From Halichondria panicea (lineage: Eukaryota > Porifera > Demospongiae > Suberitida > Halichondriidae): DNA of 64,000 nt. Below are positions 36,701-61,053 of the stretch, piece after piece (positions within the stretch are counted from its first letter, which is position 1; each line of letters starts with the position of its first letter). The notes under the pieces are model-generated. The model saw only the letters and a program-made list of their open reading frames with translations, was not told where the DNA came from and ran no database searches. The translations under genes were made by a program, and so were the position numbers. The stretch spans positions 4,965,047 through 5,029,046 of the forward strand of contig NC_087388.1 in NCBI RefSeq assembly GCF_963675165.1, written 5' to 3'.

Positions 36701-37146
36701 GCCCCACCTCCCCCCTACCGGGGGTATGTTGGGGATTAGACTTGAATTTGCTCCCCTACCTAGGGGACTTAGACAGATGCATGAATTGGGTCAAAGGTCA
36801 ATTAAAGATCACATGATATCTGCCCACACTCTTCCTTCCAACACGTATACAGTGACAGCAAAATTAATCCTGAAGCAATCTCTGCCTTGACTTCACTAGC
36901 TCTATAGGAGTAAGCTTATAGCTGTCAATGTAAGAACATATTTATATAGTGATTCTGTACTTGTTATCTTCTCGCTACAGTGAAACCATGAAGAAATAGC
37001 TATAGTGTGATACAATGCAGGTCTAATCCCCACATAACCCCCATGTTGCACCAGGGGATTAGACCAAATAAACATGCCCAAAGGTAGGGGTATTAGATCA
37101 TGTGATTGGTCTAATCCCCACCTATCCCCGGTAGGGGGGGATGGGG
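36701..37146. repeat. Inverted repeat element, GTCTAATCCCCAC type
   Basis: CCCCACCTCCCCCCTACCGG and GGGGATTAGAC at the left are mirrored by GGTCTAATCCCCACCTATCC and CGGTAGGGGGG at the right. A second internal palindrome lies at 37020-37065. It is non-coding. Confidence 0.6.
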
Positions 37147-50026: not shown

Positions 50027-50707
50027 TACACTGTCAGTATAGGGATTATCATGACACGCCTGCGCCTGCATGTCCTGCATGCTTTTCAGGTCGATCGTGG
50101 AGGTGTACTGAAATAACATTCGAAATAAAATTCACAGTTCGAGAGGCTCCAGTGTGCGTGGTGTCACGCCAAGATTCTAAAGAACGTGAACTCATATCTA
50201 GTTTCTAACTCTATTCTAGAACAAACTATCATGCGTGCGCTGTAGGGTAGATTAGTTTTATAGGTGTCATGTTTTACTATTAATGCATGGAAATGCATGG
50301 GTGACTGTATAATTATGCAGTCATCAAAGACAATGATATAATACATGATAGCGCATGCGCGGTTATTACAGCCGACACTGGAATTGAGGCTACTTATTTG
50401 TGTAAGACTCAGTCTCATAAATCAGCTGCACCTCACGGAGAGGAACTAATAATTACTGTACAAGCCTGACAAAGATACATATAAAATGCATGCCTGATGT
50501 AACCCACAATCTGCGACACTCAATTATATGCGACATTTCTGAATCAATATTTTGCCCCTTATATAGCACCATAATTATTGTTTTGTGTGCAACATAGTCT
50601 CTTGCAGAATGTTTAAGTGTCGCTTTAAATCGAGGTATTAAGGTATACATGGAGCGTGGACCATGAATTAACTCACGTCTCCTTGAGCTGATTCATGAGA
50701 CTATATA

Positions 50708-50741
50708 ACACATTCACTGTTAAAAGTTCCCTTTCTCTTTT
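50708..50741 (+). repeat. Left terminal inverted repeat of the transposon
   Basis: It starts ACACATTCACTGTTAAAAGT and continues TCCCTTTCTCTTTT. It is preceded by TATATA. Confidence 0.85.
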
Positions 50742-50959
50742 GCAGGATCAGAATAGAATTCACTGTATTATTAGTTAAGTGAAACAAAAATTGTTTGATT
50801 TTTTGTCTATTTGTAAATCTTATCTGCATTGTTATGTTATTGTTGTATTCCATGGTTGTGTTAACTTGTTTTTATTGACTCTGTTTAGCATACTAGATTT
50901 GGAGAAGCTAACAGAGATATATTTTGTATCACGATAAACAGAATGAAATATACACAACA

Positions 50960-53900
50960 TTAGGTGTTACTTTGCTTTAGCTCTTGGTATACACTCTTTA
51001 AATGTTCTATTGTCTTTTTACGTAGATGACCGGTGGACGTCAACTGGAAATCGTACAAGAGTATTGAGGATTTCGTGACTGAATCTTCCCACTCAATTCG
51101 CTTCCTCTTGTTTTCTGGATCCTGTCTTCTTGCCACTTTCCATTTGCTGTTGTACTTCCCTTCCATCCAGACAACTCCTACCTCTGAATCTGAGATCGAT
51201 CGAAGTTGAGCAATCCATGGCTCGATGTTACTGCTTGGACAGCTTCTGACTGCCAGCAACTGATCAATCTTGAGACCTGCTAAATCCTGCACCTCCCTAA
51301 CGTCTGTCCGTGATTGCTTTCGGTAGGCCCCAGTGTACACCTGTATGACATTGAATTTGAAGGTAGATACCATGTGAACAAAGCAACCTAAATTTAGGAA
51401 GCCTACTCAGTGACCTAAATTTAGGGATGGTATAATTTGTGTGTGTGCATGCACACATTGACCTAAATTTAGGGAATTGTGTGTATATACTTATACATTA
51501 CGTATATACCTAAGTTGAAGAATTATGCAAAGTGACCTAAATTTAGGTTATTATAAATTTAGGGAAAGTGCAATAGGTGTGCTGAACTGTCGTATAATTA
51601 TTGCTTACATTGCACTCTTCATTCTCTGCAGCAAATAGAGCTTGAAGCTGGGTATTCTGAGGCGCATCACAGCTCATATCTGCTGATCCTGAGGCTGGGA
51701 GTTGGGCCAGTTGACGAACTGTGTAATAATTATTAGAATATAAGTGATATACGTAATGTAAAGTATATTATGGTGTTACGTATATAATTCTGATTGAAAT
51801 GAGAGTTTGCTCACCTTCTTGGAGATGTAGCAAGGGCCAGGGGGTAATTCCAAATTCATCATCAGAGTAGACAGCGTCCATATCAAATTGCTCCCACCAA
51901 ATACGAGCATCATCAGAGATCCAAGAATAAAACTTTGGAATATCTATGTGTAGACGTGGCAGGTCTATCTTGTTGTCAGACAGGTGAACTCTATTTGGAA
52001 TGCCACATGGAATCTCCTGCACAGTAAACATTTTGCATGTAAAGTTAAAAAAGTGTAATTTGATCTATACGAATGCATGAGCTTAATTTATAGCCATAAG
52101 AGGTGTAGGTCGATAAATACATTGTCCATTTTTGTTACAGTAAAATGCACGAATCAGCGAAAATTTAACCCTCAAAAATGTTACGCTATATAGTGCAAAA
52201 TCCAAATTTTTATGAACATAATAGGCACATTAATTTTTTAAAGAATTCAAGAATCGAATGGGTGTATTATCAGGGCCTAGAGAGCTGTAGAATATACTTA
52301 TGGTTCGAACTTCAGCGTCTGTAAAAAACTGCTATTAATTATTATAACAACTGCATACACCCTAACACAAAGTGTGTTGCCATACATAATGTAGTATGCA
52401 TGTGCTTGTACGGTATTTATTATGATCACTGACAAAAAAACGTTATTACATGCGGACTTGCCAGAAGTAGTTTCACTGCTACATCAGCATTGCACCAAGC
52501 ATCACTGCTCCAATGCCGAAAATACATCACAGCTTTCCCATCTTCTAAAAAGAATTTGAAGCAATGTGGAAGAGAGTGACCATTTAGTCCGTCAATACAA
52601 GGTTCCAGCCACGACCTCACATCAGAAATAGTATTGAGTACCTCAACCGTTGGGGTAGGTGTGCTTGACTGTGTAATCTGCTTTTGGAGATCTGTACAAT
52701 TATACATGCAACAATAATTATGTAATGTCACAATCAATTCAAAACCAACCTTAATAAATTTATAATTTATAGGAAGTATAATTATAGCTATAATTATAAT
52801 TGACCACCATGCATAATACCTACATACTACATGTATAATTATGAATGCATAATTATTACCTGGTAAAGATTCAGCTCCTTTTAGAGTGAGCTGCTTAGAT
52901 ATCCTTGAGAAAAGCTGGTCAATGTCCTCATGAGTATGACCAACAGGTAGGAAGTTTACCCGCACCTATTATAGCACAATGTATACAGTGTCATATGCAT
53001 GCATGGGCAACCATGCATTGACAATGTGTGCATGAATGATTATAATTATAGTCATTAGGGCAGGGCAGTGCATGCAGTTGCTAGCCTCGAGACCAGCCGT
53101 TCGTTATCTGAAAGAACGCCTGGTCAAGTTCTAATGTACAACTTGTCTAGCTGAGTCAGCGTTTTATAGCATCATAATGATATTCATGGGTAATACACCT
53201 TGTGCGGGCAATTACCGGTCCAAGAAATTCCTGGACCATAGAACGAGTGCTACATTGGAACTTGACCAGGCGTTCTTTCAGATAACGAACGGCTGGTCTC
53301 GAGGCTATGCAGTTGCTATGTAATAATTACTATAATGATACCTTAGTGAATATCTTTCGTTCTACCAACAATGCGCAAAACCCCAGGAAGAACTTGTTTT
53401 TGTTTTCTTTTGCTGTATTGTCCAGTTGGATGTTGAGAACTGGTGGGAGATGATCTAGAGCAATCAAGGATTTGAGCAGCACATGAATCGTAACGTTGCA
53501 GTCATGAGGGAATTGCAGCATGTCAATGTAGACGTGAGCTAACTTTCCATGAGGTGCCCGGGTGTGTACTAGCACTCCAGTGACGTGTGTTCTGAGAGGA
53601 AGCAATCCCTGCACAGACTTTGGGATCTTTGCGAGGCGAGGAAGATTGGTCTTGTGCTGATCCATGCCATCAATGATGATGGTAACACTGTGTTGTGGAT
53701 TTGTTCTAGATTTTTCCCGATGACCATAATACTTCCGCCTTTCTTGCCTGTCACCATAATAATAATAGCAAGATGGAATAAAATTCGTATGCATATAATT
53801 GTGAGTCCTATGCACCCATGCATAATTACGTTTTGGATGTATAATTATGCACATGGGACGAGTAATTTAGGTACATTTACTTGCTGTCTGACTAAAGGCA

Positions 53901-55361
53901 AAGAATTAATTGCGTGGAAATGTAATGTGTACTCGAATACAAGGTAAAGGCTTGCAGAGTCACTTACTGAACAATCTGTAGATGTTGATCATACTCCTCC
54001 TTAAATCCACACCTCCATCCACTCTTCATTCTTTCCTGGTCAAACTTAGTGCAAATATCACACTTGCTGAAAGCGCTTTGCTGTAAATTGGATAATTATA
54101 TGGTTATGGTTATATAATAATAGTATAATAGAATACTTACACTGGGAATGAGCACCTTCGAAAAATCTTCTTTCCAAAAGCGATAAAAGGTAGAAACTTT
54201 CACAACAGCATCTTCTGGGATTCCTCCAGCCATGAGCTCCCTCTTCATCCTGACGTACACATCGTACTTAGTGAGGAAATGAGGAAGGTGTACACGATCG
54301 ATGTTAGGCATCTGATCTCCAATGAGATTAAAGTATTGCCTCATCCAAGTCTTGGCTTCAGACGTTTTTGAGGCCTCGGCTCTCACGTGGGGTTTTCTAG
54401 TGGCTTTGTGAATGCCATTTGAGAATTGTTCGGTTACTGTTTTGAATCTCTTGTTTGAAATTCCAAGAATATTCAAGAAGGCGTTCTTGCATACATGCTT
54501 TCCTTCGAGCATCATCGTAAGCTTGCTTGAGCTCGATGATTGTCTGCTTGACGAGGGAATAAATATCAATGAGGTATCAAACAGAAACTGTTTCTGGTCA
54601 GCTCTTCTCTTTTTGTTAAAGATACCTCTAACTTTCTGTACTTCCTGCTGAGTAAATGCAGCAATACACACCCTTCCACAACATTGAAACCGATGAGAGC
54701 TTACAGGAGATTCACTCTCATATTCCAAAGGATCTTCTGTCCTTCGCTTCTTGACAGGTGTTGAATTCAAAGGAGCTTCAAATTGGGGATCAAAATCCAT
54801 GAGTTCGAGTAGTTCGGAGTCAGCATCACAGTTAGTGAAGCTGGAGGACACAAACAACTCTTGGCTGCTGTCTACAACAGGAGATAAGAGCAGAGAGTTT
54901 TGCGTGTTGGTAGTCATGCTTGTCTCTGGAGACACAATAAGAAGGGAGTCTTGCGCTATGCTTGTTTCGAGTTCTGGTGACACAAAAAGGAGGGAGTCTT
55001 GCGCTATGCTTGTTTCGAGTTCTGGAGACACAATGAGGAGAGAGTCTTGCGCTATGCTTGTTTCGAGCTCTGGAGACACAATAAGGAGAGAGTCCTGCGC
55101 TATGCTTGTTTCGAGTTCTAGTTCTGGAGACACAATGAGGAGAGAGTCTTGCACTATGCTTGTTTCGAGTTCTGGAGACACAATGAGGAGAGAGTCTTGC
55201 TTGTTGTTAGCTATGCTAGCAGGAGTGCATGCACCCCTGATGCTAGTTTGTGAGTCTTGCTTACTGCTTGTCCCTGGTGACACAATAAGGAGAGAGTCTT
55301 GGCTATAACTGCCATCATAGAGAGGACATGAATCATTCATCATTGCATGCATGCAAGCCAC
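50960..55361 (-). CDS. DUF7869-type protein, candidate transposase
   Basis: Exons in coding order: 55361-54141, 54080-53968, 53747-53342, 52965-52860, 52691-52450, 52016-51815, 51718-51609 and 51340-50960; 926 aa, all GT-AG and in phase. The first 130 residues hold about seven copies of a QDSLLIVSPELETSIA-type repeat. A Cys/basic region follows (RFQCCGRVCIAAFTQQEV) and a CDICTKFDQER motif. The conserved core has IIIDGMDQHKTNLP (Asp 471, 474), NIQLDNTAKENKNKF (Asp 554) and VGHTHEDIDQLFSRIS (His 590, 592, Glu 593, Asp 594, 596). These three blocks are the hallmark of the DUF7869 family, recalled rather than searched. Their order suggests an RNase H-like DDE/D catalytic core; that is inference. 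The terminal repeats and the partner gene support a role in transposition. Confidence 0.85.
51387..51565. promoter_or_regulatory. Left subterminal array of CCTAAATTTAGG
   Basis: Exact palindromes lie at 51387-51398, 51414-51425, 51462-51473 and 51536-51547, with a partial one (TAAATTTAGG) at about 51554. They lie in the last intron of the DUF7869 gene, 0.7-0.85 kb from the left end. The same palindrome lies near the right end. These are candidate transposase-binding sites. Confidence 0.7.
53082..53307. mobile_element. TAGCCTCGA family element nested in the transposon, with 9-bp TSD
   Basis: TAGCCTCGAGACCAGCCGTT and its reverse complement close the element. The arms are about 50 bp and include TTATCTGAAAGAACGCCTGG. 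TGCAGTTGC flanks both sides (53073-53081 and 53308-53316). It lies in intron 3 of the DUF7869 gene. Confidence 0.8.
54906..55300 (-). repeat. In-frame tandem repeat at the N terminus of the DUF7869 protein
   Basis: Units of about 48-54 nt encode QDSLLIVSPELETSIA with small length changes in multiples of three. The core SQDSLL...SPE resembles serine-rich, phosphorylatable linear motifs. Keeping the frame despite length change implies selection on the protein. Confidence 0.8.
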
Positions 55362-55533
55362 AAATCATGCGCACTGAACTATCACACCTGCGGGTTCACG
55401 CATGGCTACTTTATTGCGCATGCGCCGATGGACTAGCACTATTCAGCTGCATTTAAAACTGCACTGCACTGCGCTGCACTTAGTAGTACGTGCTTAGCTA
55501 CTGTAGCTCCCTAGTTTACAGCATAGGTGAAGA
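55362..55533. promoter_or_regulatory. Bidirectional promoter region of the transposon
   Basis: 172 bp separate the two divergent start codons. It contains GCGCATGCGC and repeated CTGCACTGCACTGCGCTGCA. No TATA box is obvious. Co-expression of the two genes is inferred. Confidence 0.55.
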
Positions 55534-58500
55534 ATGCCTGCAACCAAGAGGTGGCACTTTGAGTTTCTCGTGGGTGGAGTCAGTGGTATCACTGTGTACA
55601 AGAATGGTGCAAGGATTAAGAGCTACAAACTCCCAAATCGCCCAGTCTTGGAAAGTGTATATTCAATAGGTACTCCTTCTACTAGAAAGACTTGTGATAA
55701 GGTTAAAGAATACCTAGATCAAGCCATTGAGGTAAGCTATAATGTATAACAATGTTGTAATTTTAGTAATAAGCACCACAGATATAATCCTGGTTTTTAT
55801 TGGTCATACAGGTCACATTTAAATGCAAGACTACTGTGCTCCTGAATCGGAAGGAGTTTGAATGGAATAAATCAGCATTTTGTCGACTGTTGAGGCTGTC
55901 TCCTGGGGCGAGAGCAGTCGACTTCATTCAAGTCTTCAACCAACTGACAAAGGTATCATAATAATGTGTCTTGCCCATTTCTGCGTGATTGCTAAGGTGT
56001 ACAACAGTTGATACAGTCCCTGTTTTCACATAGGAATAATGGGGGGGGGGGGTCATATAGATCCTTGTGATAGGGAAAATGTAATAATTGATGTACAATA
56101 CGTTTTTCATGTACATCACTTGAAGATCAGACCCTCTCAACAAAATCTCTGACTACAAAGCCCGAGTTTAAGCAGCAAAATTTTAGCCCAATCCAGTGCC
56201 TTCCTGATGAGTTCAAGCTGGAAATGTTATCAAAGGTATACAAGCGCTTGAGAAGATTTTCTATAGACAAAATAATATTGTTACGTATAAAGAAGCACAT
56301 GCAGAGGTATAATATTATAGGAGCCTGACAGCGTAATCTATTTATATCTGCATTGAAGTTGTTATGAATTAACAGTAACAGTTTTTTAGATCATGTTTGC
56401 CTGCAATCTGATTGGCTATAGAGGAAGTGTTCTATCCAACTTAGTATACTTACCGTATAGCGCGAAATTTTCGAGGCACTTATATTTCGTGGATTGGCCT
56501 CTAAAAACCATTTCGTTGCACAATGTTCGCGGAATGACTGCTTACGGGAAGCCACGCCTTTAAATATTTGCACGATAGCAGGTAATTCTAATTAAAGAAC
56601 AATTTTCGTGGACTTAATTTTCGTATAGAATTCTAACCCACGAAATCCGCGAAAATTAAGCCCCTCGAACATTTCGCGCTATACGGTATTTACTTCACTT
56701 ATGTAGCAAAGATTAGATAAGAATAGTGCATGATTGACTAAATTGAGAATCATGGTTGCTATAATTATTATGCATGATCTATAATCAGGGCTAGTAGAAC
56801 CCTCTCTACACGTTCGGGATACTACAACCATGCAGCTCTAAATGTTAATTATTAATTTTCCAGGTTTCAAGCAGTGAGCTAAGCCTTGCTGAATTAAAGG
56901 AAGAAGCTACCAGCTACAGATCAAGAAAGTCTCTGCAAAGGGCTTTTTGCAAGTAAATTAACAATCACATGCATGCATTTGTATAGACACTGTTTAGGAA
57001 GTTTCTAGAAGCCCAAAGGGCTGGTAATTGTAGTATCCCGAACGCGGTGAGGGTTCTACTAGCCCTGACTCGTGAGGACTTCTAAATCATGTGGAAACTT
57101 CCTTTTTTTGATCTAAAGTGTATTATTTCTATAATCACATTTTTTAAGTTAAGTATAATTCCATCCCAGGATAACTACTTCCAGTACGTGGTGCGAGGCA
57201 AAACGTAGATTTCCTGCCTTCACTACCCCAGAGCGTCTGAGGACATTCCACCAGATATGTTTAACCAAAACAATACCGGCGTCTTTTCGTTCATATTGTG
57301 AGGCAGCTCTAAAAGCAGAAAAATCAGGCAGCACAGACACTGTTGTCCCCTCGGCTGATATATATAAGTTCAGGCACTGCAAGGCTTATGTGGTCGAAGG
57401 GGATGCAGCAAACATGTGCTGCCAAGATGTTAGGGATGTCTACCCTACATTCATGGGCTCAAATCTCTTCCTGGCTGACATACCCGTGGTATAATTATGT
57501 GCATGCATGCACGTACAGCTATAACACATGTATATGTTATAGCTACGTATATAAACACTCCTGATATTATACTTACATGTTGTTCAACTTCGTGCAGGCG
57601 TGGACAACAGAACAAATTCAAAGCCTTGTGTACACCACAAAACAGCTGAATACAATACCCGAGAAAACTGTGAGCACATTTAATGTTGCATTGATTAGCA
57701 CCAGTCTCTCAAAAATTGAAGAACTGAAGAATTGTTTGTTGAAGTGCTACGAACACGTCAGTGTGTGCTACTGGCAGACAGCGTGCACAGGTAAACTATG
57801 TTCAATAATAATTCATCGACATTATACATTTAACAACTTGTGTCACACGGTGTGTGCAAATCCATCGGTTTTTCGCCTCTGCTATAATTATACACTCAAA
57901 ATAACAACGCTATAAATATTTCGCATGACTGTATATAATATTTATCGTGTAACAACTGTATAATAGCGTGAACTTTTTCGAGGTGCTTAATTTTTCCTGA
58001 TTTCGTGGGTTAGCAATACTACTAATTATCTGCTATAACTCGCAAAGATTTAAGGTGTGGCTTCTGGTAAGCACGAACATTGTGCAACGAATTGCTTTTA
58101 GAGGCCTTTACAAAATATATAAGCACCTCGAACATTTCGCACTATTATGTACACATGCAGCCTATTATATCGTACATAACTATAAGCATAATAATTATTA
58201 TACAGCCCATAATCATTATTGTTATAGGTGGCTTAGATTCCACTCATCCACTGGGATTTATCCCATCAATTGGTTGTGTGGTAGTGGGACACTACTCACT
58301 CAGTGGAAAGCTGGAGGAGGACCACTTTAACTTCGTTGAGGAAGGGCGGTCCAATTTCTTCCCCTGTATTGATCAATCCACTGCTAAGATTCCGATTTGT
58401 GTGCTGACAGGCATTATAAAGAAGCTGTCTTTTGAAGGGAGCACTGTTATTGATGCCACAAGTGAATCTGGTAATTATTATAGGATGACAGTGCATGCAT

Positions 58501-59013
58501 GCATGATTACTATTATTTTTATGTTTTAGATACCCAGCATGATTGTGATGTACAAACAACTATGGACCACCTGCCATGATAGTCAGATAGTTTCGGCCTT
58601 GTTGGGCCTCGTCAGCATAGTGTAGTTGTATATATGTAATGAGTACATGTAATAAGATTACATGCATAATATTATATACATGCACATACATGTAATTATC
58701 ATGTGTATAATAGTGCATGGGAATGTATCCATGCATGCACATGTACACAAGTAGAGTTCATGTATGCATGCAGTTTACCTAAATTTAGGTATTATTATAA
58801 TGCAACTGTCTCTAAATTTAGGTACAACGTACAAAGTTAATGGTACATGTAAACCTAAATTTAGGTAGAATTGCATAACACATCGTTTCATGCATGCATG
58901 CAGGTAACTGTGCAATCGCCTCACTACAAGCAGGAAGAGATGTGGTGGTACTCAAGGCATTGGCCCAAGCAGCACTTGCAAGAAGCCAGCTTGCAGAACT
59001 GTCAACAACATAG
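55534..59013 (+). CDS. Methyltransferase-like protein of the transposon
   Basis: Exons: 55534-55731, 55812-55952, 56131-56235, 56864-56952, 57170-57488, 57598-57790, 58228-58470 and 58904-59013; 465 aa, all in phase. The N-terminal part (MPATKRWHFEFLVGGVSGIT) is unrecognised. FLADIPV at about 278-284 stands where beta-class amino-methyltransferases carry motif IV (DPPY). STVIDATSESGNCAIASLQA with GRDVVVLK (about 418-447) matches the C-terminal SAM-binding motif I (normally DPFAGSGTT...A...GR). The order IV then I is that of the beta class. Both motifs are degraded (DIPV for DPPY; TSESG for FAGSG), so catalysis is doubtful and DNA binding may be the retained role. Assignment is by pattern only. 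Confidence 0.7.
56451..56688. mobile_element. MITE TACCGTATAGCGCGAAATTT in the transposon
   Basis: The left end TACCGTATAGCGCGAAATTT is inverted at the right end (CATTTCGCGCTATACGGTA). It is TA-flanked and 238 bp, in intron 3 of the methyltransferase-like gene. A diverged copy lies at about 57950-58146. Confidence 0.75.
56785..57090. repeat. Inverted repeat surrounding exon 4 of the methyltransferase-like gene
   Basis: AGGGCTAGTAGAACCCTC and TTCGGGATACTACAA (56787-56826) are inverted at 57030-57069. Exon 4 (56864-56952) lies between the arms, so the pre-mRNA could loop it out. Related sequence occurs at 18475-18545. Confidence 0.6.
58778..58865. promoter_or_regulatory. Right subterminal array of CCTAAATTTAGG
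   Basis: Exact copies lie at 58778-58789 and 58854-58865, with a one-mismatch copy (TCTAAATTTAGG) at 58811-58822. They lie in the last intron of the methyltransferase-like gene, 0.4-0.5 kb from the right end, mirroring the left array. Confidence 0.7.
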
Positions 59014-59244
59014 CTAGCTATGGACTAGACTATACTATACTGTTTCAAGCGTTCCGTTAACTTCTATGTTACTTTGTATATGCGGAGTATACGACTCGAT
59101 CTTCATCTTATTGAATGTTCATCTGGTTAAGCAAGTCAATGGGTATCAATAGAAAATAATTGGTGTTCTCTAATCTTTGAGAAATTAACAGGGATATTAA
59201 ACTAAAAAAAATGATTATGAACAAAAAACATAGCATATTAAAAT

Positions 59245-59278
59245 AAAAGAGAAAAGGAACTTTTAACAGTGAATGTGT
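59245..59278 (-). repeat. Right terminal inverted repeat of the transposon
   Basis: Reverse complement of the left terminus with one mismatch (C to T). It is followed by TATATA. Confidence 0.85.
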
Positions 59279-61053
59279 TATATATAGAGTTGATATTCAC
59301 TTCTGCAAAAATGACCGAGACCCTTGGAATATAGGATGCTTTAATGAATGCATGTGCATGGCATTGTAGGTAGCTGACATATTATAAATTAAACAATGAT
59401 TAGATCTAGCATAAAGATGTTTTATCACCACAATAATGATTATTTATTGCTGCATAAGACTTTAGAGTGTCATGATAATTATTAACGATGTCTTGTACAT
59501 GTCAGTCGCATGTGTGCTGCATGTGTTAGTTTATGTTGTCTTGTTGGGAATAATAATCGGATTTTTTATGAGGTTAATAAAGAATAGAGTAATGGATAAA
59601 AAGAATATTGATCATGGCCTATACAGGTTATACCAATTCAGTAATTCACTTTGGCACAAGTAAAATTATATAGCCTCGATTCCAAGCGCTTTGGCGGGCC
59701 TTTAAACATCAGGCATGTCCATGTCAGACAAGAGTTCATACGTCGTAGAGTTTAGAATAACTTTACTCTCGACATGCATGCCTGAACTCTGCAAACAAAT
59801 TCATTTCCCTATATAATTTATAGCTTATGTTTCTGGTTTGAAAATCACGTTTAAATTACCCTTGAGAGAGGGAGGTATCACTATTCAAGTGACATTATTT
59901 TCTGTAAATCTGCATTTCCTGTATTATTAAAACCAACCACACCACCATGCAACATGAACACACTGCTCATACACACTATAATTTATACACACATGCATAT
60001 ATAGTTGATGCACATACACACACGTAACATGTTGATAGGTTCATCCACAAGATGTTATACCGTATATATATTGAACACTTAATTCTATAGTATACGTATT
60101 AACTTTAATTTTACTTCAATCTGTATATATATATGCAAGTGCTATAGTATATAATTATACTGATATGTCTATTGTCTTGTCAATGTGATCATTTGGCCCG
60201 CAGTTCATGCATAGAGTTCATGCATTATTAATGCATGGGTTGTGATAGCCTCGATTCCAGGTCGCAGGGAAAAACTGTTGAAGGGGCTGGAGTCGAGGCT
60301 AGGGTTGTGATTATAGAGTGGAGCCAGCTATTAACACTTGTCTGCTCCTATTAACACTTGCATATGCTCTGAGTCTGAGGAGTACACAGTTGATCATGAT
60401 CACCACCTCATTCTGACCAATTATCAAGAGACTACACAGTTGCATAACAGCTTATCATAAATCTCATGCATGAGCTCATGCATGCATGCAGGCTATAGTA
60501 TACAATGTCAACACAAACATCTTTCTTGTGCAGCTTACACAACATTAATACCCACACATGCATGAGCTCATAACAATATATATGCACTGCATGCTACTAT
60601 ATATAGGCATAGGCACATTTTGCATGGGGTGAGAATTATACTCTGGCATATAACGGCACCTTTATATCATGATCACGAGAGAATTTTATTGTACATTTAA
60701 TATTCAATATCGATAATTATTCATAACAATGAATCATGGTATAAATGAAGAGTTCGTCCTCGTCAAAAATTTAGAACGGGAAACTTGTTGGAGTGGTTTC
60801 TATATTGATATACTAGGATAATAATCTCCTGGATTAGGAGAATGTGCATGCATGAGTATAATAGTGCCGCAAAGTGTTTGCACACACGCATTGTATAGAA
60901 ACGTAAGACATTAGCGAGATATGTAGTTATGCAAAACTTAATGAAATGATCTTTACCATAAATCGACATCAATATCGGGGCCTTTAACAATAATTATAAA
61001 ACAATTATAGTTAAGAACATGTGCATTATAAGAAACAATTGTTTAGTCAGGCA
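59279..61053. other. Intergenic stretch, AT-rich, with small elements
   Basis: No gene is recognised. It holds a TAGCCTCGATTCCAAGCGC fragment at 59672 and the 56-bp element at 60246-60301. Many ATGCATGCAT and CATGAGCTCATGCATGCATG runs are present. Confidence 0.5.
60246..60301. mobile_element. 56-bp minimal TAGCCTCGA element with perfect 9-bp TSD
   Basis: TAGCCTCGATTCCAGG at the left and CTGGAGTCGAGGCTA at the right. GGGTTGTGA flanks both sides (60237-60245 and 60302-60310). It is little more than two termini, which defines the minimal mobile unit. Confidence 0.85.

Follow-up and report, generated by a model that had tools for sequence, protein, structure and literature searches.

A pair of divergent genes enclosed by inverted repeats in the genome of the sponge Halichondria panicea raises the question of whether the two genes form a transposon and, if so, which of their products moves it. 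The pair lies in a 64,000-nucleotide stretch of contig NC_087388.1 (positions 4,965,047 to 5,029,046; hereafter the window), which is contig C12 in our numbering of the 131-Mb genome. Gene A encodes a protein with the domain of unknown function DUF7869, and gene B encodes a protein with methyltransferase-like sequence. An earlier note on this DNA had proposed that both belong to one element of cut-and-paste type, and the proposal was borne out: the ends recurred at other loci and the divergent gene B was a recurrent partner of DUF7869 genes. We consider it likely that the element is a DNA transposon with the DUF7869 protein as its transposase. Features expected of a DDE/D cut-and-paste element were found, i.e., inverted repeats shared among copies, target duplications of fixed length and an RNase H-like core with three acidic residues.

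Ends, target sites and copies of the element

The limits of the element were set by copy-to-copy comparison and by the recurrence of its ends:
50707..59279, unstranded: whole element, 8,573 bp, AACACATTCACTG...CAGTGAATGTGTT
50707..50741, plus strand: terminal inverted repeat at the left end (35 nt), differing from the right arm at one position
59245..59279, minus strand: right terminal inverted repeat, 35 nt, counterpart of the left arm
50703..50706, unstranded: target-site duplication ATAT, left copy; its 4-bp length is supported by other copies
59280..59283, unstranded: target-site duplication ATAT, right copy

A self-complement scan of the window gave inverted arms of 40 nt (50702-50741 and 59245-59284) that were 98% complementary; judged from the other copies, the element's own ends within these arms were 35 nt long and 97% complementary, with one mismatch. 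The repeats of 34 bp with one mismatch described earlier are thus real but reach one base further on each side. The 34-nt end match scored 33, as against a best of 22 among 500 Markov-resampled elements.

The same termini were present elsewhere in the genome, where our counts of end matches are lower bounds. The left end matched at least 10 further places, including an internally deleted copy of 2.9 kb (C1:17483964-17486829) and an old, diverged one (C1:8313355), and the right end matched at least six, the window included, plus a 32-nt piece on C6. Both ends were found at six loci: the window, C11:2900095-2911266, C8:5623579-5633398, C8:3308877-3318682, C1:17483964-17486829 and a rearranged copy on C3. 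For the copies at C1:7053677 and C1:9676671 and two copies on C5, the left end alone was seen. A second family, represented by an element at C1:8261165-8269411 (stretch L034), held the same divergent gene pair between inverted repeats whose arms were 38 nt and 100% complementary, counting in the flanking CTTAA. Its ends, AACACTCTCTCAAC..., recurred in a 17-kb copy on C7 and in an internally deleted copy of 1,715 bp on C8.

The target duplication was exactly 4 bp in seven of the eight copies whose ends could both be read and lay in normal order: ATAT (window), CTAT (C11), AAGA (C8:3308877) and AAAG (C1:17483964) in the family of the window element (family 1), and TTAA, TAAC and TACA in family 2. 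The C8:5623579 copy carried TGAC and CGAC at its flanks, and its first few bases were altered. The C8 copy of family 2 was inserted in a repeat, and of 42 rows listed for its joined flanks, 40 matched through the junction; all four empty sites fetched carried a single TACA. The element does not, then, target TA or TATATA as had been suggested. The C11 copy of family 1 was likewise inserted within a repeat. Eight paralogous places were compared and six were readable, five with GCTCTATAGG and one with GCTCTATATAGG; the filled site had six extra bases, GACTAT, at the left junction, so that CTAT at this site is no clean duplication. A member of this host repeat family also lies in the window (36789-37053) and represents a paralogous empty site. 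The search of the genome for an empty site of the window copy itself gave none; the matches were the copy's two flanks, over their full length, and four short partial ones.

An origin of the copies by segmental duplication or through errors of assembly is almost certainly wrong. The two C5 copies (C5:5548020 and C5:5159296; L016 and L017) do have a common left flank; these are older copies in opposite orientation and probably represent one insertion inside a duplicated stretch. The other loci, by contrast, have distinct flanks, 4-bp duplications and filled versus empty sites. Assignment to Tc1/mariner or PIF/Harbinger was rejected on the length of the duplication, 4 bp as against TA or 3 bp in those groups, and EnSpm/CACTA was rejected on the 4-bp duplication and the AACAC ends, as against 3 bp and CACTA ends.

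Two copies showed rearrangements of their own. The C3 copy (about C3:1891844-1901667; L020 from 8345, L015 to 8168) was circularly permuted, with the window-equivalent 57271-59279 followed by one base and then by 50707-57284. Each of its outer ends carried the 14-bp repeat CAATACCGGCGTCT, and the copy looks like the reinsertion of an excised circle. The C11 copy had an insertion of 2,588 bp at window-equivalent 56315-56318, which is a different element starting with CCGATTAGCCGCGGTT and ending with AACCGCGGCTATTCGG, with TTAT at both junctions.

The DUF7869 protein as candidate transposase

Gene A occupies the left half of the element:
50960..55340, minus strand: gene A, DUF7869 protein, 915 amino acids in 8 exons (gene model)
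55340-54141, 54080-53968, 53747-53342 and 52965-52860, minus strand: gene A exons 1-4
52691-52462 (then a GC donor), 52016-51815, 51718-51609 and 51340-50960, minus strand: gene A exons 5-8
53082..53307, unstranded: foldback insertion within gene A intron 3, its arms 65 nt long (94%)

One intron of the model is of GC-AG type, with an apparent GC donor (GCAAGT at 52456-52461) that is required to keep the frame. The foldback insertion was present in the window and C11 copies and missing from those at C1:7053677, C1:9676671, C8:5623579, C8:3308877 and C3.

A Pfam scan of the window gene A protein gave DUF7869 alone (PF25273, residues 482-672, E=1.1e-67) and named no transposase family; among 34 DUF7869 relatives, one had a match to the rve integrase core (E=0.005). 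Fold searches indicated that the model of the DUF7869 core is RNase H-like and resembles integrases and DDE transposases. The matches included retroviral integrases, TnsB, Mos1 and Hermes, at 5-16% identity in the listed rows, and pointed to the DDE/RNase H-like group as a whole, to no single superfamily. The putative catalytic acids of the window protein are D464, D547 and D589, conserved in 98, 94 and 97 of 98 DUF7869 sequences, respectively. They follow one another along the fold in the same order as in the enzymes named above, a likeness of order and not of superposed positions. On these models the DUF7869 protein would be a DDE/D transposase that binds the 35-nt ends, excises the element and inserts it at a staggered 4-bp target; its catalytic activity is a prediction from fold and residues.

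Alternatively, DUF7869 could be a captured gene, and an unrelated enzyme could move the ends in trans. Such a reading would fit with catalysis being only predicted and with Pfam naming no transposase family in the window protein, but we hold it to be very improbable, given the integrase/transposase-like core with its three near-invariant acids and the structure of an element on C2. In the latter (L023 2860-6154, C2:4682859-4686153), whose protein belongs to another DUF7869 subfamily, perfect inverted repeats of 33 bp enclose a DUF7869 open reading frame (ORF) of 683 amino acids, the sole ORF of at least 150 amino acids in a 10-kb stretch, without gene B. The target duplication of this C2 element is ambiguous, AAT at most. 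ORFs related to it were found in L024 (C1:8541676), L025 (C7:6594942), L026 (C1:8152302) and L027 (C1:12721504).

Beyond the core, the DUF7869 protein ends in a BAH-like region, in which it is unlike retroviral integrases, TnsB, Mos1 and Hermes. Residues 790-915 of the window protein (51340-50960) matched human NIPBL (6wg3_E) towards the C-terminal end of its chain with E=1.3e-9, and the profile A2 of this gene A region gave E=8e-7; residues 603-694 of the model aligned with PtSHL, and one of the Foldseek rows was a BAH domain. From these alignments the NIPBL/BAH-like region appears to be a shared or exapted domain. A protein search with DUF7869 retrieved 448 proteins at E<=0.001, of which the best 120 were listed; Amphimedon, Acropora, Nematostella and Strongylocentrotus are among the animals with such proteins. 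Two DUF7869 loci turned up in a search of prokaryote genomes, both in Bacteroidetes metagenome bins (L048 and L049), of which L049 was interrupted as by introns; they are likely eukaryotic contamination, and no gene B was recognised by eye among the ORFs listed near them.

The divergent partner and the subterminal palindromes

Gene B lies opposite to gene A, and two clusters of a palindrome, CTAAATTTAG, lie in the last introns of the two genes:
55534..59013, plus strand: gene B, internally deleted form, 465 amino acids in 8 exons (reconstruction)
55534-55731, 55812-55952, 56131-56235 and 56864-56952, plus strand: gene B exons 1-4
57170-57488, 57598-57790, 58228-58470 and 58904-59013, plus strand: gene B exons 5-8, the last two with a degenerate methyltransferase motif I
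56122..56123, unstranded: deletion point, where about 1.5 kb with ParB-like exons is gone in the window and C11 copies
51388..51546, unstranded: left subterminal cluster, four copies of the palindrome CTAAATTTAG, within gene A's last intron
58779..58864, unstranded: right subterminal cluster, three copies of the palindrome CTAAATTTAG, within gene B's last intron

The earlier description of two divergent, fully open multi-exon genes was right in that the genes are divergent and both readable, but gene B of the window has lost 1,494-1,498 bp. This extra stretch, with further exons, was present at 56122|56123 in the C1:9676671, C8:5623579, C8:3308877 and C3 copies; the C1:7053677 copy had its beginning and was divergent afterwards, and the old C1:8313355 copy also had the ParB-like exons. 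Our reconstruction for the window uses a putative splice over the deletion through a cryptic acceptor, while the NCBI model P0001 starts later and gives 321 amino acids. The full protein of 758 amino acids is open in the C8:3308877 copy and agrees with the partial NCBI models P0001 and P0002.

Searched against Pfam, the 758-residue protein matched no family. The middle part of gene B with its paralogues (A1) matched ParB-like partition proteins of PHROG (phrog_6392, E=3e-4; phrog_1033, E=0.006; phrog_723, E=0.046), matches that came from two of five paralogue pieces; two others had none and one hit an unnamed family, and the family 1 piece itself reached E=0.11. The families that A1 members matched in Pfam were unrelated or unknown (best E=0.006; DUF6551 at 0.013 in two of six), an NCBIfam search of the middle part gave nothing relevant, and the Pfam ParB_N profile (PF02195) found no match in the whole genome. 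Gordonia phage ParB-like genes made up five of the seven phage records matched by gene B, at E=8-9. The C-terminal part matched a methyltransferase family over motif I (phrog_18293, E=9e-4, two of five members) and no Pfam family, and in a PDB search M.RsrI was the sole molecule matched (E=1.5). Beta-class enzymes usually have a motif I of DPFxGSG type and a motif IV DPPY/W; gene B has DATSESG or variants for motif I, and PP followed by Y, W or F was absent from the 758-residue protein and from the five members of A4. The altered motif I and the missing motif IV led us to read the C-terminal part as a degenerate methyltransferase and to reject a functional beta-class DNA adenine methyltransferase. 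Full gene B seems, on these weak matches, to join a ParB-like domain to a degenerate methyltransferase motif, and its product would be catalytically dead. A structure model of P0002 alone had a confidence score (pLDDT) of 34, too low to be informative. Two protein searches for gene B homologues outside H. panicea gave H. panicea proteins alone among the 8,000 candidates scored in each, which does not imply absence elsewhere, and among viral contigs there were pattern matches, yet no confirmed relative of gene A or gene B.

The palindrome CTAAATTTAG occurred seven times in the element and nowhere else in the window; 1,000 Markov resamplings gave 0.016 on average and never more than 1. Four copies lie ~0.7-0.8 kb inside the left end, and the other three ~0.4-0.5 kb inside the right end. 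The other lineages had different repeats: family 2 carried GGACCCAC arrays on both sides, fully palindromic on the right (GGACCCACGTGTGGGTCC) and imperfect on the left; at the C14 locus TGTACAAATTTGTACA flanked the gene pair on both sides; and at the C1:8426280 locus TGTACAAATTTGTACA occurred three times to the left and once to the right. The last two loci have a common palindrome, and their gene B pieces were 62% identical to each other, as against 39-44% to families 1 and 2. Copies with internal deletions, in families 1 and 2 alike, kept repeats at both sides. Family 3 (C1:8420430-8431466) had 28-nt repeats with one mismatch and no visible target duplication, and the stretch fetched for C14 held the gene pair and the palindromes and no convincing inverted repeat.

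The association of the two genes was evaluated on locus counts taken among the matches listed, omitting further exons of one locus. By these counts the genome has 32 loci for DUF7869 and 20 for gene B; at 12 of the 32, a gene B in divergent orientation lay within 15 kb, as against 0.15 such pairs expected. The 12 lie on seven contigs, so the pair is not one fixed syntenic locus. They represent four lineages, i.e., family 1, which includes an old copy at C1:8311948, then family 2, C1:8426280 and C14:4829484, and gene B of the latter three was 30-52% identical to that of family 1 over the aligned segments. No gene B was found within 15 kb at the other 20 DUF7869 loci, and no DUF7869 within 15 kb at seven gene B loci. 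The partner, which had been called constant, is therefore constant in some lineages only.

Both genes are under purifying selection among the young copies. Codon differences were counted with the C8:3308877 copy as reference and shared differences taken once, a count that does not model copy history. Gene A (window, C1:7053677, C1:9676671, C8:5623579 and C3) had 21 synonymous and 11 nonsynonymous differences and two with a stop (P=6e-7 versus the 78% nonsynonymous expectation); four of the 11 fall within the tandemly repetitive codons 97-129, where the alignment is less sure. Full gene B (covered parts in the window, C1:9676671, C8:5623579 and C3) had 11 synonymous and six nonsynonymous differences (P=2e-4). 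Older copies compared with the window gave higher ratios of nonsynonymous to synonymous rates (dN/dS), 0.33-0.82 for gene A and 0.23-0.66 for gene B, as expected of dying copies. Stops in gene A were at codon 791 in the C8:3308877 copy and at codon 305 in the C3 copy.

ParB binds parS, and the accessory protein of En/Spm binds subterminal repeats. By analogy with both, gene B may bind the subterminal palindrome arrays. The full 758-residue protein would then be an accessory DNA-binding protein, a ParB-like domain joined to a beta-class adenine-methyltransferase remnant, that recognises family-specific arrays ~0.4-0.8 kb from the ends and helps to pair the ends or regulates the element; we advance such a role, in place of DNA methylation, tentatively and at somewhat less than even chances. 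Alternatively, gene B could be a passenger, or a selfish addition, and play no part in transposition. The 20 DUF7869 loci with no gene B nearby agree with this, as does the C2 element, and the ParB-deleted form has moved very recently, the C11 copy being elsewhere in the genome yet nearly identical to the window copy (8,573 bases aligned with a single gap and without substitutions). The divergent pairing in four diverged lineages, the purifying selection and the palindromes kept in internally deleted copies all argue against a passenger, which we regard as improbable. The window copy, which lacks the ParB-like exons, probably moved with help from fuller copies.

Relation to known transposons and significance

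The En/Spm (CACTA) elements of plants code for two proteins, the accessory one acting at subterminal repeats, and have 3-bp duplications and CACTA ends. They are our working analogy for gene B, from which the sponge element differs by its 4 bp and its AACAC ends. Target duplications of Sola1 elements are 4 bp; the 4-bp duplication of the sponge element is compatible with this and, being common to other superfamilies, is not decisive. Fungal DNA transposons with TET/JBP genes have transposases different from DUF7869. They also carry an accessory protein of DNA-modification type (PMC12730594), in their case a dioxygenase and not a ParB/methyltransferase protein.

The closest layout is that of Sola1-1_Ec32 of the brown alga Ectocarpus, a 21.5-kb transposon with a ParB-like plus DNA methyltransferase gene on the strand opposite to the transposase (PMC12477816). 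Its partner protein has 1104 amino acids and is described as a predicted N4-cytosine or N6-adenine methyltransferase, and the same accessory class is reported for other transposons, all of them algal (PMC12477816). The sponge element shares a second gene opposite the transposase with ParB-like and methyltransferase-type domains, and differs in its size (~9.8 kb), its 758-residue partner with degenerate motif I and its DUF7869 transposase. The DUF7869 protein could be a transposase of a catalogued superfamily, most plausibly Sola1, and the element an animal relative of Sola1-1_Ec32; this concerns filing alone and overlaps with a DUF7869 transposon as we propose it. The layout, the two accessory domains and the 4-bp duplications speak for the assignment, which is possible although we lean against it. 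On the other side, the likeness seen concerns layout and description; Pfam gives DUF7869 alone, with rve at E=0.005 in a single relative; the sponge motif I is degenerate where the algal partner is a predicted methyltransferase; and the partner does not fix the superfamily, since other algal transposons have the same accessory class.

In the open-licence literature we found no paper on DUF7869 or PF25273. An accessory ParB-methyltransferase protein on a transposon is already known from algae, and the idea is not new; what is new, so far as that literature shows, is the animal case, the link to DUF7869 and the degenerate methyltransferase. A broader reading, which taken as a whole we find rather unlikely, is that DUF7869 is an uncatalogued transposase superfamily, common across animals and plankton, and that some of its members co-evolve with a ParB-like/dead-methyltransferase partner. 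The partner would read family-specific palindrome arrays close to the two ends (CTAAATTTAG, GGACCCACGTGTGGGTCC-type and TGTACAAATTTGTACA), as a parS-like system for end-pairing or copy control within a transposon of animals.

DUF7869 is annotated merely as a domain of unknown function, and the family occurs in many animals and in environmental sequences. If DUF7869 is a transposase, those genes would become candidates for transposons or domesticated transposons. The partner adds an animal case to the accessory proteins of ParB-methyltransferase type described for algal transposons, and the family-specific palindrome array makes the proposed self-recognition directly testable.

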